In this document: positions 16,429-64,000 of the stretch, piece after piece
Position numbering within the stretch: position 1 is the first letter of the stretch
Layout of the letters: each line of letters opens with the position of its first letter
Source of the DNA: Desulfuromonadaceae bacterium
GTDB lineage: Bacteria; Desulfobacterota; Desulfuromonadia; Geobacterales; Pseudopelobacteraceae
Length of the DNA: 64,000 bases
Assembly: GCA_028683855.1 (NCBI GenBank)
Contig: JAQUHA010000004.1
Location: forward strand, 62,001 to 126,000
Direction: 5' to 3'
Notes under the pieces: generated by a model
Seen by the model: only the letters and a program-made list of their open reading frames with translations
The model's database searches: none
What the model was told of the DNA's origin: nothing
Translations under genes and position numbers: made by a program

Positions 16429-19400
16429 CTAAAGCCCCAGAAACGAATTAATCGTCTTCTGTACTTCGGCGATTGACACCCTATTATCTACGCTCGTATC
16501 CACACAAGCTTCGGCAGTCTTCAGTCCCAGAAACATATTAATAGCACTCTGCACCTCGGCAATGGTGACGGTGTTGTCGTTGTCGCAGTCGCCCGGCTTG
16601 GTAATGATAGTGCCTTCGCTGGTCAGTTTTATCTCCTGTGTTGTTACTCTGCCTGCTATTGCTGTGATGCCTGCTGTTGTCTGCGCTGCATAGCCAGCTG
16701 CTGTTGTGCTGATTGTGTAGGTGCCGGGGGTGGTTAGCATTATGTATGCACCGTTTGCGTAACTGCTTATTGTTCTGTTTGTTGTGCTAATGTTTGCATT
16801 GGCTATGGGGGTGCCGGTGGTTATGTCACGGATGTACCCTTTGATGATTGCAGGCAGGGCGTTCGTGGATACTATGGTGAAGCTTCGGGGGGTGCTTTCT
16901 ATTGCTGCTCCGTAGCTGTCTATGGCTTGTATTTTCCAGTAGCAGTAGCTGTCGCCGTTCTGACAGTAATATATTCCGGTTGCCGGGTCGGTTAATGGGT
17001 CTTTGGTTATGTATGTGCCGTTCTGCGGAATGCCTTCTTCGGTGTAAATGGTGTTTGTGAAACTGGGGTCTGTTGCTACTTTAAGGGTGTAGGTTATTTT
17101 GTTGGGGGAGGTTACAGTTTCCCAGTTTAACTGAAAGATGCCGCTGACTGCTGCTTCGTCTTCCGGTGAGGTAAGGGTGAAGCTGTTTGGGGCTGTGTTG
17201 TTAGCCAGCTGTTTGTAGGCGGTGGAGTTTTTGGCTGGTGCGATGTCGCCGGTCTGGTTGTCCTGGGTGTAATACAGGATTTTGTAGGTGCCAGGGTTGG
17301 GAAAACTGTAGCTGCCGTTCCATTGAATGCCGTCGTAGTACAGGGGGCTGCTGATGAGTCTGGGGATTACCTGCCCGGTTTTACTGGTGTCGGCGGTGGC
17401 TATGGGGGTTCTGATTTCCATCCAGGCACGGGCTATGCGGCTGTTGTCGTTGACTCTCAGCCAGAGTGGGGTTTCTGCTGTTTCGGTGGTTGGTATTATT
17501 GCGGTGCCTGTTACTTCTGTTATGTCGGCGGGGTTGCCGAGGGTGCGTATTCCAACACCTATCTGCATATTTGCGATGTTCTTTCCGTCTGTGTCGAGCA
17601 GGTAGCTTGGTTTGCCGTCACCATTGTCGTCAAGAAGAGGATGTTGGGCGAGGGTGTCGTAGACTCCGGCGTGGGTGGCAAGTGGTACTTTTCTCGGGTC
17701 ACGCAGTTCTACCATGTTGCTTGATTGGCTAAAAGCGTCTTTTAAGGTGTCTCCACGTCCAAGGTAGTTGAAGAGGTTGTCGATGAAGTATTCTCCACCG
17801 TTGTAGGTTGTGCCGCTGGTGCTGTTGTAGATGGTGAAGCCGGCTATGGACTGTTCGTCTGTGTTGGCACTGGTGAGTATTATTCTCCCCGGTTTGGAGA
17901 GTACCGGTGCAAAGATTCCGGAGTAGCAGGTGCCGATCATTATTATTCGGTTGTGGTCGGTGAGTGTGCCGGTTGCTGTTACCTGCGGGTCACTTTCAAG
18001 TGTGTCGAGGTATTCTTTTAGTTCAGTTGGTGTGAGTGGATTGGTGTCATCACCAAGCAGGAAGCCGGTTGTGCTTCCGTGATCTATCATTATCAGGTAG
18101 AGCGGGGCGGAGGAGGTTACGAGTTTGTCCTTTGCCCAGATGGTGATGCTGTCTTGTATCTGTTGTCTGGTTACGGGTGTTGAGTCAGTGCTGGTTAGGC
18201 GAAGTATGTTGTCGGGTAAAAAGCCACGTTTGTTGACGAGTGTTGAGTAGATGGTGTCGGTTGATGCGGTGTGGAGATCGAGCAGGCTGTTGTCGGATGC
18301 TTTACCGGTGATTATGATGGCGTAACCGGATTGAGGGGTGACACCTAATGCCTGGGTTGCGAAGGAGGCGGCAAGTGTGTCATTTCCTTCAAATCTGGCT
18401 TGGATCATGTAGACACCGGGGAGTGCGAAGTTGTTGAGGGCACCGGTGGTGAAGTTGCCCAACCCATCGGTGGTGACGGTTTGCACTATGGGCGCTGGGA
18501 AAGGGACTGCAACCGAGGATGGCGGGGTGATGATGAGAGTTACTGTGCCGCCGGATACGGTGGTTGCGTCTGTTTTTACGAGAGTTCCGGTTATGCTGGT
18601 AGTGTTGCCAGCCCGCAGTGAGGTGGTGTCATTAAGAGTTAGAATGGTTCCGGTTTTAGTGGCTGGGATCTGAATTGTGAAGGTTGATGTTGATGGTGCA
18701 GAATATGTTGTTCCGTCTGAGGCGCGGGCGTTTATGGTGTAGGTTATGCCTTCACGCCAGAGGGTGGCAGCGGTGTTTAGACTCCAGTTTGTTGTTCCGG
18801 TGGCGAGCAGCCATGACGGGGCCATGGTAAAGCTGCCGTCGGTCTGCAGGAAGTATGCGCCGTCGGTTATCTGTACTTCTGCTTTGGATAGGCCGGTGCC
18901 GGTGGCGGTTCCGGTGATTGATGTCAGAGTTGTCAGGCCGGAGCCTTTGGCAGGGGTTGTTATGGCTGCCGATAGTGATGACGCTGGTAGAACATTCAAT
19001 GTCACAGAACGCACGGCATCCGGTGGAATGCCGTTACTGGCGGTTATTGTCAGTTGGTAATCACCGGCGGTGCCGGCGGCAGGGGTGCCGCTGAATACTC
19101 CAGTTGTAGCATCAATTGCCATGCCAGCAGGAGCTTGGTTTATAGTATAGGTGGGCATTGGCCAACTGGTTGACTTGACGGCTACGGAGCAGGCAGAGTC
19201 TACTATACAGGTGGCTGACGGTGAGATGGTAAAGGCAGGGGCAGCGATGGTGGTGAGTTTGTATATTCCGGTGTCGGTCCCTGCATAGACAGTCTGGCGG
19301 CTTACGGGGTCAATCGCGATGGAGAATACTGATTTTGTCAGATCACTGCCAACACTGTTCCAACTTGCTGCGGAGTCAGTGGATTTGAAAACCCCACCAC

Positions 19401-21180
19401 TCGTTCCAGCATAAATAATCTGGCTGTTTGCAGGGTCGATGGCAAGCGAGAAGACAAATAAGTTTGTCATGCCCCTATTGACCGCAGCCCACGATGAACC
19501 GCCATTGGTGGATTTAAAGAGACCGCCACCATTTGTCCCAGCATATACAGTTTGGTTGTTAGCGGGGTTGATGGCAAGTACCTTAACATCTGTAATGGTC
19601 AGGCCAGCGTTAATTGCCGTCCACAGTCCAGCACCATCCATCGACTTAAAGATGCCACTGTCACTTGTTGCGGCATAAATGGTCTGGCTGTTCGTGGGGT
19701 CAATGGTGATTACTTTGAGACCTGCTGTGCCTGTTATTCCACTGCTGGCGTTCATCCAAGACAAGCCACCATCCACTGATTTGATGACACGGTTGTTTCG
19801 CAATCCTCCGCCGATATAAATAATTTGGTTGTTGGCAGGGTCAATGGCAATTGAGTAGACGTCAAAACCTACTAGCCCAGCTAGCTGCAATAAGCTGCTG
19901 GATGGTAGTTGTTCCCAAGTTGTGCATCCATCCTTTGATTTCTCAAAGCGGCTGCTATATGTTCCGGCATAAATGGTCTGGCTATTGGTGGGGTCAATGG
20001 AGAGTGTGTGTACAAGTAAAGAATCCTTGACGGTCGACCAAGATGTGCCCCCATTGGTAGATTTGAATATACCGCTACCGGATGTCCCGGCACAGATAGT
20101 CTGGCTGTTCACGGGGTTAATGGCGAGCGAATTTACTTGGCGAGTAATTGTCAGTCCGCTGCTTATCTTACCCCAGGAAATACCACCGTTGACCGATTTG
20201 AACATACCAGCAGCAGATGTTCCGGCATAAAGAGTCTGAACGTTACCGGGATCGATAGCGAAAGACATTACAGCAAGCGTCTCCAAGCCCTTTGCACTCC
20301 AGGATGTGCCGCCATCCGTCGATTTAGATATTCCGCCACCCCAGGTTCCGACATAAATGGTCTGGCTGTTGGTGGGATCTATGGTCAGTGTGTAAACTCT
20401 TTGACTTGTCAGGCTGTTGTTAATTTGGGTCCATAAAGCGCCGCCGTTGGTAGATTTGAAGACACCACTGCTCTCTGTTCCGGCGTAAATAGTCTGGCGG
20501 CTGGAGGGATCGACTATAAGTTGGGTGATATAAAATTCAGTAAGACCGGTATTAATTATCGTCCACGACCCGCCGCCGTCCGTCGATTTAAAGACGCCGC
20601 CACCCCAGGTTCCTGCATAAATGGTCTGGCTGTTTGTTGGATCGAAGACGAAAGTTTTGACATAGTTAGAGGTGGTCAACCCTACGTTGATCGCTGTCCA
20701 CGACCCGCCGCCGTCTGTCGACTTAAAGACGCCACTGTCATTTGTTGCAGCATAAATAGTCTGGCTGCTCGTGGGGTCAATTACGAGAGCATTTACAGAT
20801 GTACTAGTCGTTATGGTCAGACCGCTGTTGATTGCAGTCCATGAAGCTCCAGCGTTGGTAGATTTGAAAACACCACAGCCGTCTGTTCCGGCATAAAGGG
20901 TCTGATTGTCGATGGGATCAAGGGCAAGTGAGTAAACAGATGAAACCTTCATGCCGTTGTTGATCGTGGTCCATGAAGCACCGCCGTTTGTCGATTTAAA
21001 GACACCTGCATACCAGGTGCCGACATAGATGGTTTGGTTGTTGGTGGGATCAATGACTATCTCAGGGACAGAACCCTGGAACGGTCCGATAGACTGCCAT
21101 GTACTCGCAGCGCAGCATTCTCCAGAAAAAGTAAAAATCTGTACTGCAAACATGATAATGGCAACACCCCAAAGTTTCAT
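16429..21180 (-). CDS. Secreted beta-propeller (BNR/sortilin-like) - caspase-like - dockerin protein
   Basis: About 1583 residues; the ATG at 21180 has GAGGGG before it and starts a signal peptide (cleaved near GECCAAS). Residues about 28-640 hold some 13 repeats of about 45 residues with the pattern QTIYAGT..GGVFKSTDGGGSW, as in sortilin/YCF48-like propellers. A putative Ig domain, an Ig-like domain with TDG and a Big_1-like domain follow. The clan CD-like domain has His in YLIMIDHGSTTGF (about 1034) and Cys in IGTCYSG (about 1085). Then come FN3-like and carboxypeptidase-regulatory-like domains and a C-terminal dockerin (about 1525-1583, GDCDNDNTVTIAEVQSAINM). It is the only one of the six caspase-like dockerin proteins here with a repeat propeller as its head. 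Confidence 0.85.
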   Translation of the reverse strand: MKLWGVAIIMFAVQIFTFSGECCAASTWQSIGPFQGSVPEIVIDPTNNQTIYVGTWYAGVFKSTNGGASWTTINNGMKVSSVYSLALDPIDNQTLYAGTDGCGVFKSTNAGASWTAINSGLTITTSTSVNALVIDPTSSQTIYAATNDSGVFKSTDGGGSWTAINVGLTTSNYVKTFVFDPTNSQTIYAGTWGGGVFKSTDGGGSWTIINTGLTEFYITQLIVDPSSRQTIYAGTESSGVFKSTNGGALWTQINNSLTSQRVYTLTIDPTNSQTIYVGTWGGGISKSTDGGTSWSAKGLETLAVMSFAIDPGNVQTLYAGTSAAGMFKSVNGGISWGKISSGLTITRQVNSLAINPVNSQTICAGTSGSGIFKSTNGGTSWSTVKDSLLVHTLSIDPTNSQTIYAGTYSSRFEKSKDGCTTWEQLPSSSLLQLAGLVGFDVYSIAIDPANNQIIYIGGGLRNNRVIKSVDGGLSWMNASSGITGTAGLKVITIDPTNSQTIYAATSDSGIFKSMDGAGLWTAINAGLTITDVKVLAINPANNQTVYAGTNGGGLFKSTNGGSSWAAVNRGMTNLFVFSLAIDPANSQIIYAGTSGGVFKSTDSAASWNSVGSDLTKSVFSIAIDPVSRQTVYAGTDTGIYKLTTIAAPAFTISPSATCIVDSACSVAVKSTSWPMPTYTINQAPAGMAIDATTGVFSGTPAAGTAGDYQLTITASNGIPPDAVRSVTLNVLPASSLSAAITTPAKGSGLTTLTSITGTATGTGLSKAEVQITDGAYFLQTDGSFTMAPSWLLATGTTNWSLNTAATLWREGITYTINARASDGTTYSAPSTSTFTIQIPATKTGTILTLNDTTSLRAGNTTSITGTLVKTDATTVSGGTVTLIITPPSSVAVPFPAPIVQTVTTDGLGNFTTGALNNFALPGVYMIQARFEGNDTLAASFATQALGVTPQSGYAIIITGKASDNSLLDLHTASTDTIYSTLVNKRGFLPDNILRLTSTDSTPVTRQQIQDSITIWAKDKLVTSSAPLYLIMIDHGSTTGFLLGDDTNPLTPTELKEYLDTLESDPQVTATGTLTDHNRIIMIGTCYSGIFAPVLSKPGRIILTSANTDEQSIAGFTIYNSTSGTTYNGGEYFIDNLFNYLGRGDTLKDAFSQSSNMVELRDPRKVPLATHAGVYDTLAQHPLLDDNGDGKPSYLLDTDGKNIANMQIGVGIRTLGNPADITEVTGTAIIPTTETAETPLWLRVNDNSRIARAWMEIRTPIATADTSKTGQVIPRLISSPLYYDGIQWNGSYSFPNPGTYKILYYTQDNQTGDIAPAKNSTAYKQLANNTAPNSFTLTSPEDEAAVSGIFQLNWETVTSPNKITYTLKVATDPSFTNTIYTEEGIPQNGTYITKDPLTDPATGIYYCQNGDSYCYWKIQAIDSYGAAIESTPRSFTIVSTNALPAIIKGYIRDITTGTPIANANISTTNRTISSYANGAYIMLTTPGTYTISTTAAGYAAQTTAGITAIAGRVTTQEIKLTSEGTIITKPGDCDNDNTVTIAEVQSAINMFLGLKTAEACVDTSVDNRVSIAEVQKTINSFLGL

Positions 21181-21213
21181 AAACAAGACCCCTCTGATTT
21201 CGCGTCACACACG

Positions 21214-24200
21214 TTACAACCCCAGAAACGAATTAATAGCCTTCTGCACCTCAGCAATAGACACAGCATTATCCCCGCTGGTATCCACACAAGCTTCTGC
21301 CGTTTTTAGCCCCAGAAACATATTGATAGCACTTTGAACTTCAGCAATTGTGACTGTTTCGTTGTTGTCGCAGTCACCAGGTTTGCTTGATGCAGTCGCC
21401 ACGGTCAGGTTCATGCTGGCGTCAATCGCTTTGCCGGGTGATACCGTTACGTTTGATGCTCTCATCGGTTGATATCCGGTTGCAGTGGCACTGATGGTAT
21501 AAGTTCCAGGTTGGGTCATGATGAGGAATGCGCCGTTACTGTATGTGGTTGCAGTTGCAGTGCCGGTGTTGATGGTTGCGTTGGTTATCGGCACACCAGT
21601 TGAACTGCGCAGGTAGCCTTTGATGATGCCGGGGAGGCCGTTGGTGTTGTCGGTTGAGAAGGCTTGCTCCTGTGATGATGTTATTGCGCCGTACTGATCG
21701 ATTGCATCAACTTTCCAGCTGTAGTTGCTGACGTCTTTGAGGATGCCTTCCGGGATGTAGGTAGAAGGTACGGTGATTTCTTCTTCTTTGTGGACAACAG
21801 TATTCTGGCTGTCGGTGATGGTTAGAGTGTAGGTTAGAAGATCGTTATCCGGATCACTGCTGTCAGTCCAGGTGAAGGCGGTCATGGTTTTGGTTGTGCT
21901 GTTCGCGGTCGGTGTCAGTAGCTCCGGTGCTGTCGGTGCGGTGTTGGTGGTTGTGTTCTTGTATGCCAATGCACGGGTTATGCTGGAGACGCTGTCGCCT
22001 GCACTGGCGGCGTAGTAGATTTCATAGGTTCCGGCAGGAAGTGCTGCCGGAGGATTGGTCTGATAGAGGTTGGTGAGTGTTGCAGTTCCTGTCCACTGTT
22101 TCGGGTCATTCGGATTGCGGGTCAGCAGTATTCTCGGCAGGTCTATTACTAATTGGCCGCTGCTGCTTCCAGTGGTGATGGTGGTGTCGGGCAGCCTGAT
22201 TTCTGCCCAGGCTGCTTCTGCAGTGCCGAAGGTGGTGAGTGAGAGTTGGATCTGGGTGGCTGTTGGAGAAAGGTGCGCCGTTGGCGCAACGCTTGTGATG
22301 TCTTCCTGGTTGACGGAGTTGGTTATAGTTGCTCCTGCTCCGAGGTAGAGTGTTTTGGTGAGGTTGGAGGCCATTATTGTTCCCGCTTTGTCACCATCGT
22401 CATCAAACATCGGATGCTGGAATGATTTATCGCCATATCGGCTTATATAGTCGTTCCCTTTTCTGGTTTTCATAAGGATGTTGTTTGAGGAGTAGGCAAA
22501 GGCGTCACTTAGCGATTCCCCCCGTGAGAGCTGTTTAAAGAGGTCGTCGAGGAAGAGTTCTCCGCTGCGGATGTTGTCGCTTTCCAGTGATCCACGGATC
22601 GATTCTTCGTCTGCTGCGGCTGAGGTGATGATGATTCTGCCGGGTGCTGAAAGGGTGGGTATGAATGATCCGGAGTAGCAGAAGCCAAGGATTACCATGC
22701 GTGGTTCGGCTTTGGCGGTGCTGTTTAGGTTACCTTCCAATGTTGTCAACCAGCTGTTGATGTCGGCAGGAGTTATGGTTTCACTGCCGAGGTAGAAGGT
22801 GTCTTCGAGGCCGTGGTCTACCATGATGAGGTAGAAGGGGGCTGGTGATCCGTTCATTCTGTTTGCCATGCCGGTGACGGCATTCATGATGGTGGTTTTG
22901 TCAGGTAGTGCGTCCACTCCACTCTGGTTAGTGGTGTAGTTGTAGTAGAGGATGTTGCTGTCATCAAAGCCGCGTGCTTTAAGTGCGCTGTAGATGCGAT
23001 TGGTGGCTTTGTTGTGATCAGTCAGGCCTTCACCGGATGGTATTTTACCCTGTACGATTACTGCATAGCCTGCCTGAGACCCGACCAGCAGGGTTTGTAT
23101 TGTGGAACTTGATTCAGAGAGAGAGGCGCTGCCGGCAAAGTTTGCCTGTATTGTGTAACTCCCTTTCTGATCAAATACAGATATGTCGTTAAAGGTGAAG
23201 TCGCCGAGATCGGTTGTGGTTGTGGTGCTGTAGCTCGGGTTGACCTGTGTGCCGTCCGGTTTGCTGATGGTGAGGGTTATGGCTTTGCTCTTCATGCTGC
23301 TGCCGTTGTCAGGCAGACGGGTGAGCTTGCCGCCGATGGTGAGGTTCCCCTGCTGGAGGATGTTGTTGGCGGAGAGGTTGATGCTGACAGTGGTGTAGGC
23401 CAGAGTGGCTGAAGATGTTGAGTAGGTAAAGGTTGAGGTGGCTTCAGAGGAGATATTGCCGATGGTGTCATAGGCACGGGCATGGACGGTGTAGACGGCG
23501 CCTTCGGTATATAGTGTATTGGGTAATGAGAGTTTCCATGATGTAGTGCCGTTCGCTGTGAACCAGTATGATGATGTCATCCAGCGTTCGTCTGACTGGA
23601 GATAATAAACAGTGCCCCGAACAATCTGAATTTCTACCTTTTCGACGCTACTACCAATATCGGAGGCACTACCGCTGATTTCCAGCAGGGAGGGGATTGT
23701 TATATTGTTGACCGGTAAGGTTATGACTGCCACTGGTGGAGTGGTGTCTACGATTGGCAGGGTGATTTCAGTGGTGCTGGTAATCGAGTTGGATACGTTT
23801 GCAGCTGCGTCTTTGACAAAGGCGTAGAGGGTTTTATTTCCAGCGGTGGTAAAGGTATAGCTGGTTGGCTTTGTGCTGTCCCAAGTGCAGTTGGTGGCAC
23901 TGTCGGTTTCTGTGAGGCAATAAGCAGTAACGGCGGTGTTGTCGGTTGCGGTAAGGGTGGTTATGGATACAGACAGGGCAGTGGCAGTGGCCGGGATGGA
24001 GAAGGCTGCGATGGTTGGGGCATTCGCATCTGGAAGCACAATTGTTGCAATAGCCGACTTACTGGCCGAAATATTCCCCACAGAATCCTTGGCAAAGGCA
24101 AAGAGGGTTTTATTGCCTGCAGCGCTGAAGGTGTAACTTGCTGGAATTGCAGATTTCCATGTGCAACCGGTTGAACTGTTGATTTCGGTCAGACAATAAG

Positions 24201-26637
24201 CTGTGACAGCGGTATTGTCGGTTGCAGTGAAGGTTGTAATGGCTACTGTCAGACTGTCTGATGTAGTCGGCATCGAAAATTCAGTTATGGATGGACTGAT
24301 AAAATCCGGCGAATTTATAATCACATTTGCAGATACACTATTTGAGATGTTTCCAGCAGCATCTTTGACAAAGGCATAGAGTTTTTTGATAGCGGATGAT
24401 GTGAACGTGTAAATTGTCGGCTTACTTGTCTTCCAGACACAATCTGCTGAATTATCTGTTTCAGACAGACAATATCCGGAAACTGCAACATTATCAGTTG
24501 AAGTAAAGGCGGTTATGGCTATTGTCAAAGTCGTTGTCGATGTCGGAATAGTGAATGTTTCAATAGTTGGTGCAATCAAGTCGGCAAATGTCACGGTTAC
24601 ATCATGATTGTTAATAACGTTACTGATTGTATAGATATTGCCGTCCATAAAGCTTTTTACATCAGTTCCGTTATCTGTAATTGAGTTGAGCACATAGCCT
24701 GGCGAAGGGGTAAGGGTACAGATGGAAGATGTATCGATATTTACCGGTGAGGAGCATGAAACTGTACCTCCAGGACCGGTGACTGCAGGGGTTATGGCGA
24801 AGGTCTGGAGCGTGCCATTGCCTGATAAAACCGACGATATTAATGGCATGGCTGCATCATCACTGTACACCTCCATAACAGCACTCTTCGACGTAGGCGT
24901 AGTTGGAGCAAAGAAAACCGTTAACGTACAACTTTCTCCGGCATTCAGCGTTGGCGTTAGATTCGGACAGGGTGACAAACCACCTGGAATGACGTAGAAC
25001 TGCGAAGCGTCGGTGCCGGTAAAGGTGATACCGTTGACGGAAATGCTACTTTCTCCTCCGTTGGTTATACTGAATTCCATTTTAGGAGAACTCAAGCCTA
25101 TGATGGCAGTGCCAAAATTGTAAACATTTGGCTGAATGAAGACTGAATATATCCCTCCACGCACCGGCAACGCATAGCTGGCAGTGGTTTTGCTGAGAGT
25201 ATTGGTAACGCCGCCACCACTCATATTCAGGCTAAAGGCGCTGGATGGTGCTGCAACAGCAGTGGTAGAACTCCAGTAATCAAACTCCTTAATTGCTGTG
25301 AAACCTGCCGTTGTCAGCCAGGTGGATTGTGTAAGCTCTCCGTAATTGATCAGGCTGCGTAGTTCGAGGATACTCGGTAAACGCCAGTCGTTGTGACCAA
25401 GGTAGTCAGTCTGATTCAGGCAGGAAACATAGGCCAAGGCATCCAACCAGCTCTTGGTAACACCGGGACTACAAGAGTCAGCACCAGGAAAATTGCCGTC
25501 GTTACCCCAAACGAGGCCGGTCAGGTTATCACTTATGGTTAGATCAGAGTTGGCAGTGAAGCGCGGATCTGGCCAAGAAACTCCGGATCGCAGTTCGCCA
25601 GCCTGACCTGTACCCGCGCAGGCAATTTCCAGACCGGCAGTGTCATAGCATTTGGCCTGACCGCCGTCAGAGCCAGCGAAAGAGGTGGTTGCTCTGGAGA
25701 TACCGGTGATCGGTATATCAAAGGTGGGGCGAATTGCCGAGTTACTGGCAATATTAAGGATGGCACTTTGGGGACCGCTGACTGTTGGCGAGAAGACCAC
25801 CGTGACGCTGCACGAGCTGTTGGCTGCCAATGTTGGTGTTAGAGTGGCGCATGGTGCCGATCCACCGGTGGCAACGGTAAACTGTGTCGGATTACTGCCG
25901 GTAATGCTGATGCTGCTGACGATAATACTGTTTGCACCACCGTTTATTATCTGAAATTCTTTCGCTTCTGATTGGCTGTTGATGGTAACGCTGCCAAAAC
26001 TGTTGCTGGTTGGCAGAACCGTGAAGGCATCGATCCCTCCACGCACCGGCAACGCATAGCTGGCAGTGGTTTTGCTGAGAGTATTGGTAACGCCGCCACC
26101 ACTCATATTCAGGCTAAAGGCGCTGGATGGTGCTGCAACAGCAGTGGTAGAACTCCAGTAATCAAACTCCTTAATTGCTGTGAAACCTGCCGTTGTCAGC
26201 CAGGTGGATTGTGTAAGCTCTCCGTAATTGATCAGGCTGCGTAGTTCGAGGATACTCGGTAAACGCCAGTCGTTGTGACCAAGGTAGTCAGTCTGATTCA
26301 GGCAGGAAACATAGGCCAAGGCATCCAACCAGCTCTTGGTAACACCGGGACTACAAGAGTCAGCACCAGGAAAATTGCCGTCGTTACCCCAAACGAGGCC
26401 GGTCAGGTTATCACTTATGGTTAGATCAGAGTTGGCAGTGAAGCGCGGATCTGGCCAAGAAACTCCGGATCGCAGTTCGCCAGCCTGACCTGTACCCGCG
26501 CAGGCAATCTCCAGACCGGCAGTGTCATAGCATTTGGCCTGACCGCCGTCTGGTACGATGGCCGCTTGCACAACTGGGACAGATACTATCCATGAATAGA
26601 TGATTGCGAGCCGGAATAATGTGAATAGTCGTTTCAT
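21214..26637 (-). CDS. Secreted double-DUF1566 - Ig-like - caspase-like - dockerin protein
   Basis: A protein of 1807 residues with a signal peptide (cleaved near VVQAA). Two DUF1566 domains (about 30-200 and 325-495) are almost identical, each followed by a different HYDIN-type domain. An InlB-like repeat, three Ig-like units with TDNTAVTAYCLTE, and a Big_1-like domain come next. The caspase/C13-like domain has His1275 (IMVDHGLEDTF) and Cys1320 (LGFCYSGSF). FN3-like and carboxypeptidase-regulatory-like domains and a dockerin (about 1748-1807) end the protein. The DUF1566 copies have YWSSTTAVAAPSSAF in the place of the variable segment seen in the retroelement targets. The repeat of 518 bases within the gene is treated separately. 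Confidence 0.85.
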   Translation of the reverse strand: MKRLFTLFRLAIIYSWIVSVPVVQAAIVPDGGQAKCYDTAGLEIACAGTGQAGELRSGVSWPDPRFTANSDLTISDNLTGLVWGNDGNFPGADSCSPGVTKSWLDALAYVSCLNQTDYLGHNDWRLPSILELRSLINYGELTQSTWLTTAGFTAIKEFDYWSSTTAVAAPSSAFSLNMSGGGVTNTLSKTTASYALPVRGGIDAFTVLPTSNSFGSVTINSQSEAKEFQIINGGANSIIVSSISITGSNPTQFTVATGGSAPCATLTPTLAANSSCSVTVVFSPTVSGPQSAILNIASNSAIRPTFDIPITGISRATTSFAGSDGGQAKCYDTAGLEIACAGTGQAGELRSGVSWPDPRFTANSDLTISDNLTGLVWGNDGNFPGADSCSPGVTKSWLDALAYVSCLNQTDYLGHNDWRLPSILELRSLINYGELTQSTWLTTAGFTAIKEFDYWSSTTAVAAPSSAFSLNMSGGGVTNTLSKTTASYALPVRGGIYSVFIQPNVYNFGTAIIGLSSPKMEFSITNGGESSISVNGITFTGTDASQFYVIPGGLSPCPNLTPTLNAGESCTLTVFFAPTTPTSKSAVMEVYSDDAAMPLISSVLSGNGTLQTFAITPAVTGPGGTVSCSSPVNIDTSSICTLTPSPGYVLNSITDNGTDVKSFMDGNIYTISNVINNHDVTVTFADLIAPTIETFTIPTSTTTLTIAITAFTSTDNVAVSGYCLSETDNSADCVWKTSKPTIYTFTSSAIKKLYAFVKDAAGNISNSVSANVIINSPDFISPSITEFSMPTTSDSLTVAITTFTATDNTAVTAYCLTEINSSTGCTWKSAIPASYTFSAAGNKTLFAFAKDSVGNISASKSAIATIVLPDANAPTIAAFSIPATATALSVSITTLTATDNTAVTAYCLTETDSATNCTWDSTKPTSYTFTTAGNKTLYAFVKDAAANVSNSITSTTEITLPIVDTTPPVAVITLPVNNITIPSLLEISGSASDIGSSVEKVEIQIVRGTVYYLQSDERWMTSSYWFTANGTTSWKLSLPNTLYTEGAVYTVHARAYDTIGNISSEATSTFTYSTSSATLAYTTVSINLSANNILQQGNLTIGGKLTRLPDNGSSMKSKAITLTISKPDGTQVNPSYSTTTTTDLGDFTFNDISVFDQKGSYTIQANFAGSASLSESSSTIQTLLVGSQAGYAVIVQGKIPSGEGLTDHNKATNRIYSALKARGFDDSNILYYNYTTNQSGVDALPDKTTIMNAVTGMANRMNGSPAPFYLIMVDHGLEDTFYLGSETITPADINSWLTTLEGNLNSTAKAEPRMVILGFCYSGSFIPTLSAPGRIIITSAAADEESIRGSLESDNIRSGELFLDDLFKQLSRGESLSDAFAYSSNNILMKTRKGNDYISRYGDKSFQHPMFDDDGDKAGTIMASNLTKTLYLGAGATITNSVNQEDITSVAPTAHLSPTATQIQLSLTTFGTAEAAWAEIRLPDTTITTGSSSGQLVIDLPRILLTRNPNDPKQWTGTATLTNLYQTNPPAALPAGTYEIYYAASAGDSVSSITRALAYKNTTTNTAPTAPELLTPTANSTTKTMTAFTWTDSSDPDNDLLTYTLTITDSQNTVVHKEEEITVPSTYIPEGILKDVSNYSWKVDAIDQYGAITSSQEQAFSTDNTNGLPGIIKGYLRSSTGVPITNATINTGTATATTYSNGAFLIMTQPGTYTISATATGYQPMRASNVTVSPGKAIDASMNLTVATASSKPGDCDNNETVTIAEVQSAINMFLGLKTAEACVDTSGDNAVSIAEVQKAINSFLGL
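25151..25668 (-). repeat. 518-bp direct repeat, copy A (second DUF1566 domain)
   Basis: This stretch encodes the second DUF1566 domain of the 1807-residue protein. It matches 26033-26550 base for base apart from one difference that I see (ggcaatTtcc against ggcaatCtcc). The copies are 882 bases apart (294 codons), so the frame is kept. The regions outside the repeat are clearly different. Confidence 0.92.
26033..26550 (-). repeat. 518-bp direct repeat, copy B (first DUF1566 domain)
   Basis: Encodes the first DUF1566 domain of the same protein and is nearly identical to 25151-25668. Such identity including silent positions means a recent duplication or gene conversion. Confidence 0.92.
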
Positions 26638-26662: not shown

Positions 26663-27514
26663 TCAGTTTGCTTTTTTACGACTCTTTACTGCGTTACCCA
26701 ACAACTGCTTCTCTTCCGCCTTTACTCTTCGCTCCAGCTTCTTGATATCCTCTTCCGGAGGTAATTCCTCCGGCTTGATGTCACTTTTTGCAAGCAACAG
26801 CCTGACATCCTTGTTGTTTTTGACATGCTCGGCGGTAATCCGCACTTCACCGTGCAAGTCGTCCCGCTTGACGTTGAAATTGGTGATTTCGGTCGCCAAG
26901 TCCTTCGCCTTAATGGTTATAGTCGGGAGGAAATCCGCCAATGCCCTGTTTTCGGGCATCCCCAGCCGTTTCTTCATCTTCAGAGTCGTATGCCCTCCGA
27001 AAAGAGCATGATCGCCTCTGCTTCTTATTCGACCAAAACCCTGATTATCTACGCCTCGCTCATAAATTATCTGGGAAAGTTCCGTTTCTGTGGCGACCAG
27101 TTTTTCTCGTGCCTGCATACGTTCGACCAACAGTATCCGCTCTTCAAGAAGTTCCTGTTTGCGCGTCTGAATGGCAAAGTAGCTTTGGGCAAACGCGATC
27201 TGCTCCTTGCGTGGATCACCGTTTTGAGCAATCAGGTAGCAGGCGTAGCGGGTCAGCATGATGTCATCGACTTCCCGCTTGGCACCCTTGGCAAGATCGA
27301 TCATTTTGTTGACGTCAACAAAATGATCTGCAACACCCTGACCAGAGTTCTCGCAGGCTATTTTCGCCTTGTCGATGACCCTGGAAAAGTTCCGCCATTC
27401 GTCGTAATCAAGCAAAGCCAGCAACTCTCTGGCAAGCCAGTACTCAACGCCATCTTCCTGATATGAAGATTCCTCAAAACTATTGTTCAGCCTGATAATG
27501 GTTTCTTTCTTCAT
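26663..27514 (-). CDS. dinD: DinD-like DNA-damage-inducible protein
   Basis: About 283 residues. The segment [23 protein letters not shown] followed by [36 protein letters not shown] matches the N-terminal (BRO/DinD-like) domain of the DinD family, and [32 protein letters not shown] matches its C-terminal half. DinD of E. coli is SOS-induced and interacts with RecA. The ATG at 27514 (MKKETIIRL) has AAGGAAG upstream; an earlier ATG at 27571 would start inside a repeat. No LexA box is apparent to me. It stands alone between dockerin and DUF1566 genes and is probably an accessory gene brought in with the island. Confidence 0.8.
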
Positions 27515-27544
27515 ATCGGTTGCTTCCTTTTTATTAAGCAAATT

Positions 27545-27630
27545 GTCTGAACTGGGATTTAAAGGATGCACAGATTCTCAAGATTATAAAATCAGGTAAA
27601 TCCTTAAATCCGGTGAATCCTTGTTCAGAC
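27545..27630. repeat. TCTGAACC-type palindromic repeat, copy 1
   Basis: Begins with GTCTGAAC and ends with GTTCAGAC, with a body of runs such as GGATTTAAAGGAT and AAATCCTTAAATCC. It lies between the DinD-like gene and the stop of the DUF1566 gene at 27633. Related copies are at 34566, 61805 and 62347. Confidence 0.75.
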
Positions 27631-27632
27631 AG

Positions 27633-34534: not shown

Positions 34535-34565
34535 ACGTAATTCTCCATTCTTCATTGCAATCTTG

Positions 34566-36233: not shown

Positions 36234-36251
36234 ACGCGGGGACGCTACCCA

Positions 36252-37212: not shown

Positions 37213-37220
37213 GTATCCCC

Positions 37221-42235: not shown

Positions 42236-42250
42236 AAATCTGTAGAAAAG

Positions 42251-56584: not shown

Positions 56585-59500
56585 TTACAACCCAAGAAAC
56601 GAATTTATCGTCTTCTGTACCTCAGCGATTGAAACCGTGCCGCTCCTGTCAAAATCGACGCATATTTCTGCAGATGCGAGTCCGAGGAACATATTGATGC
56701 CGCGCTGTACTTCAGCGATGCTTACATCTTTACTCCCGTCACAGTCACCGGGCATAGTAGAGACTACCTCTGTCAGATTGAACAGAACTTTTGAGACACT
56801 GCCGCTGCTGGTTGTTACGCTTCTGGTTGCTGATGTATAGCCTGCTTTTTCTGCCGTCAGACTGTAGATCCCGGCAGAAACGGGTATAAGTACATAGCCG
56901 TTGGAGAGTGATGTGTACGTTGCTGTTGATGTTTTTACCTTTGCGGATGGAACACCTTTACCACTCTGGTCGATTACTGTGCCGAGGATAAATGCAAGCA
57001 TCCCGCTCTGCGGGAGATAGCTGAATTTTACTGTTTCTGATTGGGCGCTGCCCCCTCTGCTGTCAACCGCAGTTACCTGCCACCAGAATGTGCCGGATGT
57101 GAAGAGTTTTGAACCGTCGGCTTTAAGTTCATTTACTGCATCAAGAAGGGTTGCCGATTGAGGTATCCCTTCAAAGCGTTTCAGCTCATTACCGGCAGCT
57201 CCGTTGTTATCGGCAAGTATGATTAGTGTGTAGCTTATCGGGTCGTTATCCGGGTCGGCTGATTCGCTCCAGCTGAATGCTATCAGTGGTTCTTTCTGCT
57301 CTGCATCTGCGGCAGGTTCAAGGGGTTGCGGTACAGCAGGAGCAGTGTTGGCTGTGTCATTGATATATACCGTAGCGACAGTCGGCGGGAGCTGTTCTCC
57401 ATCAAGATCTTCAGCATACAGAATGACAGAGTAGGTTCCTGTTTCGTTGAAGATAATGTCTGTTATGCCGGGGTTTAGGTCGGCAGGAAACTCCCAGCGT
57501 GAATTGCTCTGGTTGTAGCGTGCTGTCAGCTGCGGGAGATTCAGATTGATCTGACCTGTGTCCCCTTCCGGCATGACGAATGACGGTTTCTTTACTTCTG
57601 CCCAGACAGTCACTGCTTCACCGGTTATATCTCCTGTGGTTGCTGCGTATATTTCCGGTGCGGTGCCGAGCATTGCAGTTGCGGCAGGCATGGTCTGTTT
57701 CCATTCGACCATTGATGCGGCACGGGAGATGCCGAAGGGGAGATTCCAGCTGGGTATACCGTCGTTATCGGCGAGGTACTGATATGGTGTTCCGTCGTCG
57801 CTGCCGTCCTCAAAGAGCGGGGACTGTTTACTCATTCGTTCGATTGTTTCTGAAGCTTTTTTGAATGCCTCTACAAGATGCAGATTGCTGTTACCGGCAA
57901 GGTGATCGACAAAGGCATGAATAAACGAATCCCCCAGAATGGTCTGGTCAGCTGCATAGCGGGATGGTCTTGGCCCCTGGGCGGCTGTTTTGTCTGCTGC
58001 AGCGCTTGTTATTATGGTGCGGCCGGTTTTCTTCAACCCGGGAATAAAGCTGCCGGAGTAGCAGGATCCGTTAATGATGACGATTTTGGAGGTAATGTTG
58101 AAGTTGGTCTTGAGGTTGCTCTCAAGGGTAGTTATCCAACCGTTCATTTCACCGGGGGTTAGATAGCTGCTGTCGTCGCCGATGTAGAATTTACCATCCC
58201 TGCCGCCATGATCGAGCATTATGATGTAGAGCGGCGCATCGCCGTAGGAAGATATCCGGTTGTATGCCCATGTCGTGATGGCGTTCTGTATAGCTGTTCT
58301 GCTCATAACCTCATCCACATTTGCGCGACTGGTCCCGTCTGGCGAGAGATACCAGATGTTATCTGCGGTTATGAAGCGGTCGGTGAGCTGTTTGTGTATT
58401 CGCTGCATACTGGCGGTGTAGCTGTCGCGACTGCTTCCGTTCAAATCCCCCTGAATCAGGATTGCATAGCCGGTGGAAGCGGCGACGGTGAAGTTCTGCG
58501 GAGTGGATGCGGGTGATGCGTTGAGATTGCTGCTGCCGCCAAAAGATGCCCGTACACTCCAGATGCCGGTTATACCGCCAAACTGGTTGAAGCCGATGCT
58601 GAAACGACCGGCGCTGTCGCTGGTAGTCGGGTTAAGTGTATACTCCTTATTGTTGCTGTCGGTTATGGTGACTGTCACCGGAACTCCGATAAGGTTTACT
58701 GTACTGCTGGACGCAGCGTTTAGCTTGCCGCTTATTATGACGCTGCCGCTTGGAGATACGAAGGTTGGAGCGGATGATGCGGTTACAGTCGTGTCAAGCT
58801 TATTTACTGTGAATGTTCTGCTTACTGATGCAGCTTTATAGGTTGAATCCCCTTTGAAGCCCAGAGCGACGCTCCAGCTGCCGGAGAGATCAACTATGGC
58901 TGAATCTACCGGATAGTTGAATGTTCCGTTGCTCATGGTCTGGGCGCAGTTCTCCGCTGTTTTGGTGGCTGACGGAGTGGTAAAGATGAAGCAGACTTCC
59001 TTGTAGGCAAGCGGCGTTACAGTAGCGTCTTCGATAAGTGAGCCGCTTATGCTGAAGGATTGAGCGTAGGCGATTGATTGAGCCAGTGCGTTTATGTTCA
59101 GTGTAACAGTACGGGTCGGATCAAAGGTTATGGTAACGCTCTGGCTGGACGGGGGGGAGATGTTGCCGGCTCCGTCACGTGCAAAGGCGTAGAGTGTTTT
59201 TGTGCCGGAAGTGGTAAAGGTGTGGTTAACCGGTATGCTTGCGCTCCATGAGCATCTGCTGCTGTCGTCTGTTTCGGTGATGCAGTAGTCGGAGACACCG
59301 TTACTGTCGGCGGCGCTCAGGGCTGTGATGGCAACAGTAAGGGTGTTTGATGTAGCAGGGATGGTGAAGTTCGTAACCGTAGGGGCGGTGGTGTCGGATA
59401 CTGTTGTGTCGGTTACGGTTACTGCGTGGCTGTCGCTGCCGTAGGCGGCGCTTGTGCTGCCGCTTTTGCCGGAGGCGGTCAGCGTGAATGTTCCTGCGTT

Positions 59501-61741
59501 GCTGTCGCTGTACATGAATTCATAACTGGCGGTTCCGGCGGTTATAGTTGGATATACGGTGTTAGCCAGACTCCAGCTCATGCCGTCGGCGCTGAATCTG
59601 CCGGTGGCGGATGAGGATGTGAGGGTGATTGCTGTTGCTGATGATGCCGCTGTTTCTGTGCCGTAATCATCTATTATGCGGGCTATTATGCCGGCTAATG
59701 CTCCTGCTTTGGCGAAGCTCCATGATGCCGATTCAAGACGGAGTGTGCGGTAGGCAGGGTCATAGACGCGGATCTCCAGCTCTTTTGTTGCAGTATGCGG
59801 TGTTGCGGCGCCATCGCTGACTCTTATGCTGAACGGTGCGGTGATTGTTCGTGCTGTCGGAGTTCCGGTGATGCTGCAGCCGCTCAGTGTGAGACCGGCA
59901 GGGAGTGAACTGCCATTTGCGAGTGAACAGTTTATTGTGCCGACACCGCCGCTGGTGGTTATCGGTGCGCTGTAGGCAGTCCCTTTAATACCTTCAGTCA
60001 GTTGGGTGGAGCTTATTGTGAGTGGTGTCGAGATAGTCAGCGGGATGTCTACTGTTTTTGTATCCCCTCCGCCGCTGGCGGTTATACGGAGAGTGTAGCT
60101 GCCAGAGGCTGCTGCGGTGGTTGTTACGGTTATGGTGATATCGCTTCCGCTGGCTGCAGGAGTGATACTGGCGGTTGAAAGCTCTGTTGTGACACCAACC
60201 GGCGTTGTGCCGACAAATGATGCGGCAATAGATGTGACGCTGCTGTAACCACCGACTGCGGTGATTGTTAAGCTGCGGTTTTCCCCCTCCCCTTGCACCA
60301 GTTCAATTGCCGCCGGCGTGGTAAGGGCAAAACCGGTCTGCAATAGGGTTGTGCTTGCACTTTTTGATGGCGATCTGTTACCTGCTGCGTCTTTAACAAA
60401 GGCGTAGAGCGTTCTGCTGCCGTATGTGTTGCTGAATGTGTAGCTTGCAGGTTTTGTTGTCTGCCAGCTGCAGTCGGTGCTGTTGTCAGTTTCAGTCAGG
60501 CAGTAGCCGGTTACTCCAATGTTGTCGCTGGATGTAATGCCTATGCCGGTTGCGGTGAGTCCGCCGACGCTGGCAGGAAGGGTGAAGGCGCTTATGGTTG
60601 GTGCAGTTGTGTCCGGCAGGGTGATGGATGTGGTTGCTGTGGCAACCGGTGATATTAGTCCGGCTCCGTCTTTGACAAAGGCGTAGAGGGATTTGCCGGC
60701 TGCTACCCCCTGAGTAAGTCCGCCAAAGCTGTAGCTGGTAGGTTTGGTGCTGTTCCAAACACAACCGGTGCTGTCGTCAGCTTCGGTAAGACAGTAGCCG
60801 GTTATTGCTACGTTGTCGCTAGCGGTCAGAGTCACCGTAGCGGCTGCGGTTGTGGAAGTGGCGGGGAGACCGAAAGTGGAAATTACCGGAACTTGTGTGT
60901 CGGTGAAAGTGGCTGTTACACTCTTTGCTGCAGACATTGTTACGGAGCAGGTTGAAGGCGTGCTGCTGTCGCATCCGCTCCAGCTTACAAAGCTGCTGCC
61001 GCTGTCAGCGGTGGCGGTTAGGGTGACTACGGTGTCCGGAGTATAACTGGCTGTGCCGCTGTTACCGGACCAGGTTATCGTACCGCTATCCGGGCTTACG
61101 ATTCCGCTGCCGCTACCGGCTTTTAAAATGGTCAAATAACCAAATGACCCAGACTGTCCTCCTCGAACAGGCCAGACATAGACGTTACCCGTCTTATAGC
61201 CGTAGCTCACGTAGCCACCGTACATACTGACGTACCAGGCGAGGGTACTACTGTCCGCGTAGCTGGTAGATGACCAATAGTAGTCAGACTGAACGCCGCT
61301 GAAAGGGTGACCGGCAGGGAGAGCGGGAGTGTATTTTTCCGCGTCAATCAGGCTTTCCAGTTCTGTCACGTTGGGGAGCCGCCAGTCGTTATAGCCCATA
61401 TAACTGCTGCTGTTGAGGGTTTTGATATAATCCAGCGCACCTTGCCACGTTTTGGTTGTAGACGCAGGATTGGCGTTTTTACTCCAGATCAGTCCGGTAA
61501 GAGTATCGGTTACGGTTTGGTCACCATTATCCGTAAAGCGCACCGTTGGCGGTACTGCACCGGTTTTCAACGCTCCGTCATCAGCTGACACATAACTGGT
61601 GGTCTGCCCGGTTCGCGGCAGTTGAATGGTAGCAGTAAGGGCGAGTGATGCGTTAAAAAGCAATAGCATACACAACAGAAAGGCAATTCTGAACCAGGAT
61701 TTACTGGATTTATCGGATTTACAGGACGTTAAATTCTTCAT
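56585..61741 (-). CDS. Secreted DUF1566 (variable-type) - Ig-like - caspase-like - dockerin protein
   Basis: About 1718 residues. The ATG at 61741 has GGAG before it; an upstream ATG at 61873 lies in repeats and is rejected. The signal peptide n-region is DKSSKSWFR, encoded by a repeat, then a hydrophobic core ending near LALTA. DUF1566 (about 40-195) ends in a variable-type segment (DYYWSSTSYADSSTLAWYV). InlB-like, Ig-like (DNVAITGYCLTEADDS and similar), He_PIG-like, further Ig-like and Big_1-like domains follow. The caspase/C13-like domain has His1178 (IMLDHGGRDGKF) and Cys1227 (NGSCYSGSF). FN3-like and regulatory-like domains precede the dockerin (about 1660-1718, GDCDGSKDVSIAEVQRGINM), the most divergent of the intact set. 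Confidence 0.87.
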   Translation of the reverse strand: MKNLTSCKSDKSSKSWFRIAFLLCMLLLFNASLALTATIQLPRTGQTTSYVSADDGALKTGAVPPTVRFTDNGDQTVTDTLTGLIWSKNANPASTTKTWQGALDYIKTLNSSSYMGYNDWRLPNVTELESLIDAEKYTPALPAGHPFSGVQSDYYWSSTSYADSSTLAWYVSMYGGYVSYGYKTGNVYVWPVRGGQSGSFGYLTILKAGSGSGIVSPDSGTITWSGNSGTASYTPDTVVTLTATADSGSSFVSWSGCDSSTPSTCSVTMSAAKSVTATFTDTQVPVISTFGLPATSTTAAATVTLTASDNVAITGYCLTEADDSTGCVWNSTKPTSYSFGGLTQGVAAGKSLYAFVKDGAGLISPVATATTSITLPDTTAPTISAFTLPASVGGLTATGIGITSSDNIGVTGYCLTETDNSTDCSWQTTKPASYTFSNTYGSRTLYAFVKDAAGNRSPSKSASTTLLQTGFALTTPAAIELVQGEGENRSLTITAVGGYSSVTSIAASFVGTTPVGVTTELSTASITPAASGSDITITVTTTAAASGSYTLRITASGGGDTKTVDIPLTISTPLTISSTQLTEGIKGTAYSAPITTSGGVGTINCSLANGSSLPAGLTLSGCSITGTPTARTITAPFSIRVSDGAATPHTATKELEIRVYDPAYRTLRLESASWSFAKAGALAGIIARIIDDYGTETAASSATAITLTSSSATGRFSADGMSWSLANTVYPTITAGTASYEFMYSDSNAGTFTLTASGKSGSTSAAYGSDSHAVTVTDTTVSDTTAPTVTNFTIPATSNTLTVAITALSAADSNGVSDYCITETDDSSRCSWSASIPVNHTFTTSGTKTLYAFARDGAGNISPPSSQSVTITFDPTRTVTLNINALAQSIAYAQSFSISGSLIEDATVTPLAYKEVCFIFTTPSATKTAENCAQTMSNGTFNYPVDSAIVDLSGSWSVALGFKGDSTYKAASVSRTFTVNKLDTTVTASSAPTFVSPSGSVIISGKLNAASSSTVNLIGVPVTVTITDSNNKEYTLNPTTSDSAGRFSIGFNQFGGITGIWSVRASFGGSSNLNASPASTPQNFTVAASTGYAILIQGDLNGSSRDSYTASMQRIHKQLTDRFITADNIWYLSPDGTSRANVDEVMSRTAIQNAITTWAYNRISSYGDAPLYIIMLDHGGRDGKFYIGDDSSYLTPGEMNGWITTLESNLKTNFNITSKIVIINGSCYSGSFIPGLKKTGRTIITSAAADKTAAQGPRPSRYAADQTILGDSFIHAFVDHLAGNSNLHLVEAFKKASETIERMSKQSPLFEDGSDDGTPYQYLADNDGIPSWNLPFGISRAASMVEWKQTMPAATAMLGTAPEIYAATTGDITGEAVTVWAEVKKPSFVMPEGDTGQINLNLPQLTARYNQSNSRWEFPADLNPGITDIIFNETGTYSVILYAEDLDGEQLPPTVATVYINDTANTAPAVPQPLEPAADAEQKEPLIAFSWSESADPDNDPISYTLIILADNNGAAGNELKRFEGIPQSATLLDAVNELKADGSKLFTSGTFWWQVTAVDSRGGSAQSETVKFSYLPQSGMLAFILGTVIDQSGKGVPSAKVKTSTATYTSLSNGYVLIPVSAGIYSLTAEKAGYTSATRSVTTSSGSVSKVLFNLTEVVSTMPGDCDGSKDVSIAEVQRGINMFLGLASAEICVDFDRSGTVSIAEVQKTINSFLGL
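61161..61294 (-). repeat. Variable-repeat-like segment 3 (VR3)
   Basis: 134 bases, aligned without gaps to 62498-62631. By eye about 30 differences, nearly all in the codons that are Asn in the template at 36252, while the flanks are nearly the same. Its conserved end (VRGG) differs from that of the known template (VRSG), so it was probably made from another template. Confidence 0.7.
61687..61726. repeat. TCTGAACC repeat half inside a signal-peptide coding region (second case)
   Basis: TCTGAACCAGGATTTACTGG, then GATTTATCGGATTTACAGGA, lies inside the dockerin gene and is read on the minus strand as SDKSSKSWFR. The same piece is found at 34478-34507. Confidence 0.75.
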
Positions 61742-61804
61742 TGTCAATTCTCCGTGTGATATTGCGTTACTTGACAGAACAAGAAACCTTCCGAACCAGG
61801 AAAC

Positions 61805-61941
61805 GTCTGAACCTGGATTTACAGGATTTAAAGATTTACAGGATCTTGAATCCCGATAATTCCAACAATCCAATAAATCCTGGTTCAGATAAAGATTTTA
61901 AAATCCAATAATCCTCGAAATCCGACGAATCACGGTTCAGA
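61805..61941. repeat. TCTGAACC-type repeat, copy 3 (left of GxxExxY gene)
   Basis: Starts GTCTGAACC, has an inner GGTTCAGAT near 61882, and ends GGTTCAGAC at 61933-61941. It matches 62347-62485 over almost its whole length in the same direction (GATTTACAGGAT, GAATCCCGATAAT, AAAATCCAATAA, AATCCGACGAATC). The stop codon of the GxxExxY gene (61937-61939) is inside its end. Confidence 0.85.
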
Positions 61942-62311: not shown

Positions 62312-62346
62312 GGCACCCCCTTTATCAAACTGCCTGAAACGGGAAA

Positions 62347-62485: not shown

Positions 62486-62487
62486 AG

Positions 62488-63114
62488 CTACTCTCCCCCT
62501 CGAACTGGCCAGACATAGTAGTTATTTGGCTTACTGTGGTTGTACACGTGGCCATTGAACATATAGACGAAACAGGCGTAGGTACTATTGACTGCGTAGC
62601 TGGTAGATGACCAATAGAAGTTAGACCGAACGCCGCTGAAAGGATGACCGGCAGGGAGCGCGGGGTTGGCTTGAGAGCGATCCACAAGGCTTTGCAGTTC
62701 CTTGCGATTGGGCAACCGCCACTGTCCGGCTCTGCTGCTGTCGGTCAAGCCGCATGTACCTGCAGAAAGGGCACTGCTCCAGGTTATGGCGTTGTTCCAC
62801 GTGAGGTATCCGCTGCTCTTTGCTATGCCACCTGCCGTATCGGTGCAGTTTGCATTTTTGAGCCATATTAACCCTGTCAGGTTGTCGGTTACTGTACCGT
62901 TACCGTTATCAGTAAAACGCGGGGTGGGCCAGGCAACTCCGGATTTTATTTCGCCATCCTGACCTGTGCCGGCGCATGGTATGACCGTGCCTGCTGTATC
63001 GGTGCAGGCAGTTTGACCGGTCTGAGGGAGCTGAACGGTTGAAGCGGCAAAGGCAGTTGAGAATGCGGAATGAAAAAGAGAGAGTGCAATAATAATTAAG
63101 AGCATTTTTTTCAT
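62488..63114 (-). CDS. Secreted DUF1566 protein, variable-type
   Basis: A protein of 208 residues: signal peptide (MKKMLLIIIALSLFHSAFS, cleaved near TAFAAS), then one DUF1566 domain with TGQTACTDTAGTVIPCAGTG, TVTDNLTGLIWLKNANC, QWRLPNRKELQSLVDRS and PALPAGHPF. The last 45 residues are a variable-type segment (NFYWSSTSYAVNSTYACFVY, then VWPVRGGE) right at the C terminus, as in the primary DGR target at 36607. There is no dockerin. AGAGG precedes the start. It is closest to the DUF1566 head of the dockerin protein at 56585. Confidence 0.88.
   Translation of the reverse strand: MKKMLLIIIALSLFHSAFSTAFAASTVQLPQTGQTACTDTAGTVIPCAGTGQDGEIKSGVAWPTPRFTDNGNGTVTDNLTGLIWLKNANCTDTAGGIAKSSGYLTWNNAITWSSALSAGTCGLTDSSRAGQWRLPNRKELQSLVDRSQANPALPAGHPFSGVRSNFYWSSTSYAVNSTYACFVYMFNGHVYNHSKPNNYYVWPVRGGE
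62498..62631 (-). repeat. Variable-repeat-like segment 4 (VR4)
   Basis: The counterpart of VR3; the differences between the two cluster in this segment and are rare just outside it. One change (TGG to TGT, Trp to Cys) is not at an adenine, so some ordinary mutation is present too. Confidence 0.7.
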
Positions 63115-63533: not shown

Positions 63534-64000
63534 ATGATTTTTAAAAGGATGCTATTGGCAAGTATTATGATGCTTTTCAGTGCAATGTCCGTACTGGCGG
63601 CGGTGGGTCCGACTCTGGATCTGGGAACAGTATCTGGAGCACCGGGGCAGACAGTAGCAGTGCCCATAACTCTTACCAATAACGGAGCTGCACTGTCTTC
63701 TGTTGCCGTTGATATTGAGTATGACGCTGCTGTATTAACCCCGACAGCCGTTGCTCCGGCAACAAAACCTGTGGTAATTGGCGCTGCCGGAACAGCAGCG
63801 GGAAAAATGATTACCCAGAATCTGGTTTCAGACGGCTTGTACCGCATAGGACTGACTAGTCTTGCTGACACAAATGCAATTGGCGATGGCGTTGTTGCTA
63901 CTATTACATTTGCTGTAGCAGCCGGTACATCTGGTAATGTACCCCTGGCAAATAGACCGAGCGCTTCAGATGCTAATGGCGTTGCTGTTGCTATTACAGG
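63534..64000 (+). CDS. Secreted cohesin-domain protein, N-terminal part (cut by window edge)
   Basis: The ATG at 63534 has GGAGG nine bases before it. Signal peptide MIFKRMLLASIMMLFSAMSV, cleaved near LAAVG. The next 130 residues are a cohesin domain: LGTVSGAPGQTVAVPITLTN, VAVDIEYDAAVLTPT, YRIGLTSLADTNAIGDGVVA, TITFAVAAGTSG, then SASDANGVAVAIT. These are the usual cohesin features (PGQTV start, D-x-x-V-L, G-D-G-x-x-x-x-I-x-F). The gene runs out of the window, so the number of cohesins and the anchor are unknown. It is the natural partner of the seven dockerin proteins on its left. Confidence 0.85.
   Translation, partial: MIFKRMLLASIMMLFSAMSVLAAVGPTLDLGTVSGAPGQTVAVPITLTNNGAALSSVAVDIEYDAAVLTPTAVAPATKPVVIGAAGTAAGKMITQNLVSDGLYRIGLTSLADTNAIGDGVVATITFAVAAGTSGNVPLANRPSASDANGVAVAIT

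Follow-up and report, generated by a model that had tools for sequence, protein, structure and literature searches.

The subject of this analysis is a 64,000-nucleotide stretch of a Desulfuromonadaceae genome (contig JAQUHA010000004.1, positions 62,001 to 126,000; G000:C6:62001-126000 in our coordinates; hereafter the window), which belongs to an assembly of 3.47 Mb in 67 contigs. The window holds an island of seven open reading frames (ORFs), all on the minus strand and encoding proteins of 838-2518 amino acids (aa), here called giants, which end in one shared module, DocA. The same island carries the gene for a secreted cohesin, the gene for a lipoprotein with a modelled cohesin fold and the remains of a diversity-generating retroelement (Table 1). 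Together, these features suggest a two-tier, lipoprotein-anchored docking system with putative binding between its parts. An initial annotation of the window had proposed a cohesin-dockerin system that serves purposes other than cellulose breakdown, and a non-cellulosomal system of this kind is well supported here by protein fold and gene neighbourhood; the retroelement, a second dockerin type (DocB) and a recurrent three-gene order are additions to it.

Table 1. Features of the island in window coordinates (contig coordinates where marked C6); genes are named by their first coordinate, and bit scores are for PF01650 (cut-off 22.8).
Feature	Position	Strand	Details
ORF 16429	16429-21186	-	1585 aa; propeller + C13
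ORF 21214	21214-26637	-	1807 aa; two DUF1566 domains + C13
ORF 28736	28736-34555	-	1939 aa; one DUF1566, eight He_PIG, C13
ORF 37820	37820-40336	-	838 aa; Reg_prop propeller, without C13
ORF 42310	42310-47607	-	1765 aa; C13 protein
ORF 48147	48147-55703	-	2518 aa; two DUF1566 domains + C13
ORF 56585	56585-61873	-	1762 aa; one DUF1566 + C13
DocA	16432-16599	-	ORF 16429
DocA	21217-21384	-	ORF 21214
DocA	28739-28906	-	ORF 28736; copy used for structure model
DocA	37823-37990	-	ORF 37820
DocA, partial, decayed	42146-42265	-	just after ORF 42310; profile positions 17-56, E 6.4e-5
DocA	42313-42480	-	ORF 42310
DocA	48150-48317	-	ORF 48147
DocA	56588-56752	-	ORF 56585
C13	17599-18357	-	ORF 16429; 30.1 bits, above cut-off; custom profile
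C13	22357-23109	-	ORF 21214; 22.3 bits
C13	29906-30661	-	ORF 28736; 22.0 bits
C13	43921-44652	-	ORF 42310; 21.1 bits
C13	49524-50258	-	ORF 48147; 18.2 bits
C13	57764-58510	-	ORF 56585; 35.9 bits, above cut-off
37296	37296-37820	-	lipoprotein (by eye), modelled cohesin fold; directly after dockerin gene 37820
63534	63534-64000 (start 63513 or 63534)	+	secreted Pfam cohesin, runs past window
DocB	C6:127403-127579		C-terminus of 63534 protein; second dockerin-like type
Template repeat (TR)	36251-36392	-	20 AAC/AAT codons
Variable region 1 (VR1)	36609-36753	-	free DUF1566 protein 36607-37272; 29 mismatches, 27 at template A, P 3e-12
Variable region 2 (VR2)	33925-34066	-	end of N-terminal DUF1566, giant 28736; 23 mismatches, 21 at template A, P 7e-9
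Variable region, second family	61153-61293	-	N-terminal DUF1566 of giant 56585
Variable region, second family	62490-62630	-	free DUF1566 protein 62488
Reverse transcriptase (RT) remnant	35538-36227	-	without palm motif region, 3' end out of frame
avd remnant	36469-36558	-	29 codons, then stop; by eye like start of Avd of locus L154 (PF22296)

DocA consists of 56 residues arranged as two loop-helix repeats with one Cys in each, and the copies of the window giants are 70-91% identical to the first copy, which bears out the earlier description of seven secreted proteins with a nearly identical two-repeat dockerin tail. Genome-wide there are nine full copies, seven in the window and the others on contigs C37 and C29, besides two partial copies, one on C50 and one, decayed, within the window. 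Pfam Dockerin_1 (PF00404) matched nowhere in the genome at E<=0.001, and EF-hand models gave weak scores only for the five of the seven window modules that were scanned. A confident AlphaFold model shows the dockerin fold, built from a pair of loop-helix (F-hand) repeats, and a fold search with this model ranked dockerins best; DocA is therefore named a dockerin on the basis of its modelled fold and not of a sequence profile. In alignments inspected by eye, its loops carry D, N or S at most of the usual positions and end in E; the last loop residue in dockerins is usually D. The first-repeat Cys is invariant in 40 sequences and the second-repeat Cys nearly so (alignment A7), and a disulfide bridging both repeats is possible. 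DocA-like modules were also seen outside the family, on an Omnitrophota contig where a cohesin gene comes next (L205) and on a contig that is filed as a Thermoplasmata archaeon and may be misbinned (L204).

The 63534 protein is a clear cohesin, as had been stated, with a Pfam Cohesin score of 60.2 bits in the window and 63.3 bits over the full domain against a cut-off of 24.1. Read beyond the window, the gene continues to C6:127582 and encodes 689 aa counted from 63513. The lipoprotein of 37296, described earlier as cohesin-like, matched neither Pfam Cohesin (PF00963) nor any other Pfam family at E 0.1, and at E 10 its sole match was to another family at chance level (E 0.21). However, its AlphaFold model has a predicted local distance difference test (pLDDT) score above 90 across most of residues 46-174, and the VIA list of the structure search consisted of cohesin entries (50/50). 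On this model, 37296 is a cohesin by its beta-sandwich fold. The Pfam searches that the initial annotation had proposed as a check thus found 63534 but neither 37296 nor a Dockerin_1 protein; the missing profile hit, which was to count against the lipoprotein, is real for Pfam and does not extend to structure, because the protein is a cohesin by fold only.

At its C-terminus the 63534 protein carries DocB, whose profile has a dockerin as its best solved-structure match (E 0.0014); one of the four DocB members scanned against Dockerin_1 reaches 18.5 bits (cut-off 22.9) and the other three have no match. DocB tails are also found on adaptor cohesins of LJ_bin-4045, MJ130617A_bin-286, G051, G049, UBA9964 and E14_bin-2280. 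Since DocB was present in all 14 genomes searched, seven of which are without DocA, and DocA reaches 37 matches in the LJ_bin-4045 genome, DocB appears to be an old plug shared across the family and DocA a patchily distributed, amplified one. The gene after 63534 (C6:127618-128862) encodes a larger lipoprotein without a Pfam match, which was assigned to the 37296 family by alignment; the larger lipoproteins of this family would be expected to share the cohesin fold.

Gene neighbourhood was analysed across 76 genomes of the family, of which 13 have DocA and 60 have Pfam cohesins. Ten of the 13 DocA genomes have a Pfam cohesin no further than 2 kb from DocA, against 0.38 genomes expected (P 1.5e-18), and when the three genomes with most copies were left out the proportion was still 8 of 10 (P 3e-18). 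The three DocA genomes without a Pfam cohesin at this distance are the source genome, G031 and G043. In the source genome, 37296 comes directly after dockerin gene 37820; the corresponding place is held in LJ_bin-4045:342 by a 37296 homologue, in NC_groundwater_1640:202 by a Pfam cohesin that begins like a lipoprotein and in G040 by a cohesin recognised by a custom profile only. Moreover, the order dockerin gene, cohesin gene, 37296-family lipoprotein gene is consecutive in six genomes, and its last two genes are represented in the source genome by 63534 and the gene after it. Among 69 non-redundant DocA ORFs, a sample that is biased because some loci were fetched for their cohesins, 15 are followed immediately downstream by a gene of the cohesin or 37296 type, nine are cohesin-DocA fusions, 19 contain C13 and 17 contain DUF1566. 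By our own table count, a Pfam cohesin within a frame of 780-990 aa is present in 54 of the 76 genomes, and the majority of these lack DocA; the single such frame that was read (L002:1414-3270) is a secretin (PF00263, 134.5 bits) with a C-terminal Pfam cohesin (52.1 bits) at G000:C18:78045-78356, which might conceivably capture dockerin-tailed cargo.

The heads of the giants broadly agree with the earlier reading as propellers, DUF1566 and caspase-like modules. By Pfam, a C13 peptidase occurs in six of the seven, DUF1566 (Pfam Lcl_C) in four and propeller families (Sortilin/Vps10-type, Reg_prop) in two, while the spacers are mostly immunoglobulin-like (Ig-like), He_PIG and CarboxypepD_reg domains. 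Two of the six C13 modules pass the PF01650 cut-off and the other four score 18.2-22.3 bits. All six, which lie inside the chain of the giants, keep the His of a DHG motif and the Cys of a CYSG motif, which we take to be the catalytic pair of C13, and these predicted modules may act as legumain-like cysteine peptidases. None of the seven giants has a catalytic carbohydrase domain in the Pfam scan, and none is a dockerin-borne plant-polysaccharide enzyme of the kind that defines a cellulosome. Accessory domains are present: CHB_HEX_C_1, a chitobiase/hexosaminidase C-terminal domain, passes the cut-off in both 42310 and 48147; carbohydrase-linked matches to Alpha-amylase_C (0.069) and Glyco_hydro_5_C (0.083) are below threshold. 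The claim that the heads are free of carbohydrases therefore stands for the window but is not a general rule, because among ten proteins of relatives scanned, one, in L199 (MJ-time_bin-1817), couples this dockerin type to an apiosidase-like hydrolase; in L190 it is on a thermolysin-type peptidase. The tandem DUF1566 pair of giant 21214 (25156-26550) was duplicated recently, with 11 mismatches in 540 bases.

At least two of the DUF1566 heads have been diversified by a retroelement, as is evident from adenine-directed variation. In addition to VR1 and VR2, a third variable region on contig C62 has 27 mismatches to the template repeat, 26 of them at template A (P 1e-12). Differences at non-A positions amount to 1-2 of 89 sites, one being common to all three variable regions, and copying was therefore recent. 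Five further DUF1566 ends, of which the window has those of giant 56585 and protein 62488, form a second family in which 35 of 53 template-A columns vary versus 9 of 88 others (P 9e-12); its template was looked for and not found. The assembly lacks an intact RT and accessory protein at the retroelement: the RT remnant, the sole RT match of the genome at E<=0.001, covers PF00078 positions 8-88 of 205 only, and avd is truncated. Given recent copying and broken RT and avd genes, either a retroelement that appears disrupted in the assembly diversified the heads not long ago or this region was misassembled. In a relative (G072:C39), Avd, a template and a full-length RT are accompanied by a pair of DUF1566 targets, whose mismatches fall at template A in 19 of 19 and 23 of 24 cases. 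A C-terminal stretch of the intact relative's RT (L154:1208-2773) matches MutS domain I above cut-off (E 1.4e-6). Two more retroelements, with N-rich templates of another kind, are present in LJ_bin-4045 (L156 and L214, contigs 63 and 378); the former adjoins phage-like genes, as judged by eye, and its target has no Pfam match. Between the giants of the window lie a nucleotidyltransferase/HEPN pair, a HipA gene with a helix-turn-helix partner and a BRO-N family protein (34674-35362, 40509-42078 and 26663-27571), small genes that are by type toxin-antitoxin-like or mobile.

As the fullest explanation of these data, we lean toward the view that the island encodes a cell-surface docking system. 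The exported giants would share DocA as one interchangeable calcium-loop plug at the C-terminus, and docking may depend on calcium. In a one-step route, a lipoprotein cohesin of the 37296 type may hold DocA directly. In a two-step route, the DocA of a giant would dock onto the secreted cohesin adaptor 63534, whose C-terminal DocB would in turn dock onto the second, larger 37296-family lipoprotein encoded adjacent to it; both lipoproteins would presumably sit in the outer membrane. The heads displayed in this manner would comprise propellers as well as DUF1566 domains, which are C-type-lectin-like and would serve in binding; six of the seven giants also carry a legumain-like C13 module. Into two or more of the DUF1566 heads the retroelement copied its template, introducing random changes where the template has adenine. 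Recognition and proteolysis, the role first suggested for the assembly, are plausible because the C13 His and Cys are kept throughout and retroelement-made variable regions lie in two of the four DUF1566 giants. We offer only tentatively the bolder proposal of an extracellular hypervariable recognition-proteolysis system, in which giant legumain-like proteases hang on the cell surface by interchangeable cohesin-dockerin couplings and have their binding heads rewritten by the retroelement.

Near-identical tails on unrelated heads, and in such numbers in one genome, could also be expected if the C-terminal module were mainly an export or sorting tag for a secretion machine and the cohesin genes were unrelated neighbours. 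The secretin with its C-terminal cohesin fits this explanation, as do the cohesins in 780-990-aa frames of genomes that mostly lack DocA. However, DocA has a modelled dockerin fold, cohesins adjoin it far more often than by chance, and cohesin-DocA fusions and the three-gene order recur, which makes a mere tag rather unlikely. A possible, though doubtful, alternative is an adhesive or matrix scaffold in which C13 would process the giants themselves, by self-cleavage or transamidation, and not outside targets. Precedents for such reactions exist among other enzymes of clan CD, and the GPI8 transamidase is itself a member of family C13. The internal position of C13 and the prevalence of Ig-like, He_PIG and CarboxypepD_reg spacers would suit a scaffold, and the accessible part of one report proposes cohesin-dockerin proteins as adhesins in syntrophic consortia (PMC10553843). 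Nothing decisive speaks against this scaffold, but binding-type heads, two of them diversified, fit outside targets better than self-processing alone.

The broken RT and avd genes, the decayed DocA copy at 42146 and the missing second template might instead mark a decaying relic of duplicated surface genes and a dead retroelement, with no working assembly. This seems very improbable to us: open frames and conserved tails persist in all seven giants, every C13 module retains its catalytic pair, and the template was copied recently.

The clostridial cellulosome follows a two-level dockerin/cohesin plan, with scaffoldins that bear many cohesins. The docking system proposed here resembles it in having one plug on many catalytic proteins, anchoring cohesins and adaptors that combine a cohesin with a different dockerin. 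In contrast to the cellulosome, the seven window proteins are without cellulases, the likely anchor is a lipoprotein, and the adaptors bear a single cohesin, or two in LJ_bin-4045:471, instead of many. Non-cellulosomal cohesin-dockerin proteins are known from anaerobic methanotrophic (ANME) archaea and their sulfate-reducing partners, and the accessible parts of two papers (PMC9012536, PMC10553843) likewise describe cohesins and dockerins outside cellulose breakdown, sometimes within one protein, with surface attachment or partner contact as the proposed role. The same parts do not mention C13, DUF1566 or a retroelement, and the window island differs further in its Pfam-invisible lipoprotein cohesin and second dockerin type.

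DUF1566 targets of diversity-generating retroelements are also known and, in the available excerpts (PMC6642488, PMC4159848), share an A-rich template and A-to-N variable regions with ours. Here, however, two variable regions are found close to the N-terminus of dockerin/C13 proteins of 1,700-1,900 aa and not at the gene end, and RT and avd are broken in the window. Finally, retroelement-diversified conflict systems with peptidase effectors have been described, and the portion of that work at hand (PMC10907252) ties diversified C-type-lectin domains to caspase-type or trypsin-type peptidases. Most of those targets are predicted to be cytoplasmic (one is likely secreted) and are accompanied by NTPases and adaptors (PMC10907252), whereas the window giants look exported and bear dockerins. 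No paper was found in the literature searched that combines non-cellulosomal cohesin-dockerin proteins, DUF1566 retroelement targets and extracellular C13 peptidases; the first two are each known.

If the recognition-proteolysis proposal is true, heads could be diversified or swapped without altering the anchor, and the island would parallel the cytoplasmic retroelement-peptidase conflict systems, with docking as its basis. A vague annotation as non-cellulosomal cohesin-dockerin proteins is here turned into a testable layout of one plug type, two socket types and peptidase or diversified heads, with a lipoprotein anchor that escapes sequence profiles and a three-gene order that supplies named pairs for testing. 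Should these pairs bind, they would account for the display of giant proteins in some Gram-negative bacteria and would tie retroelement-made diversity to extracellular proteolysis.
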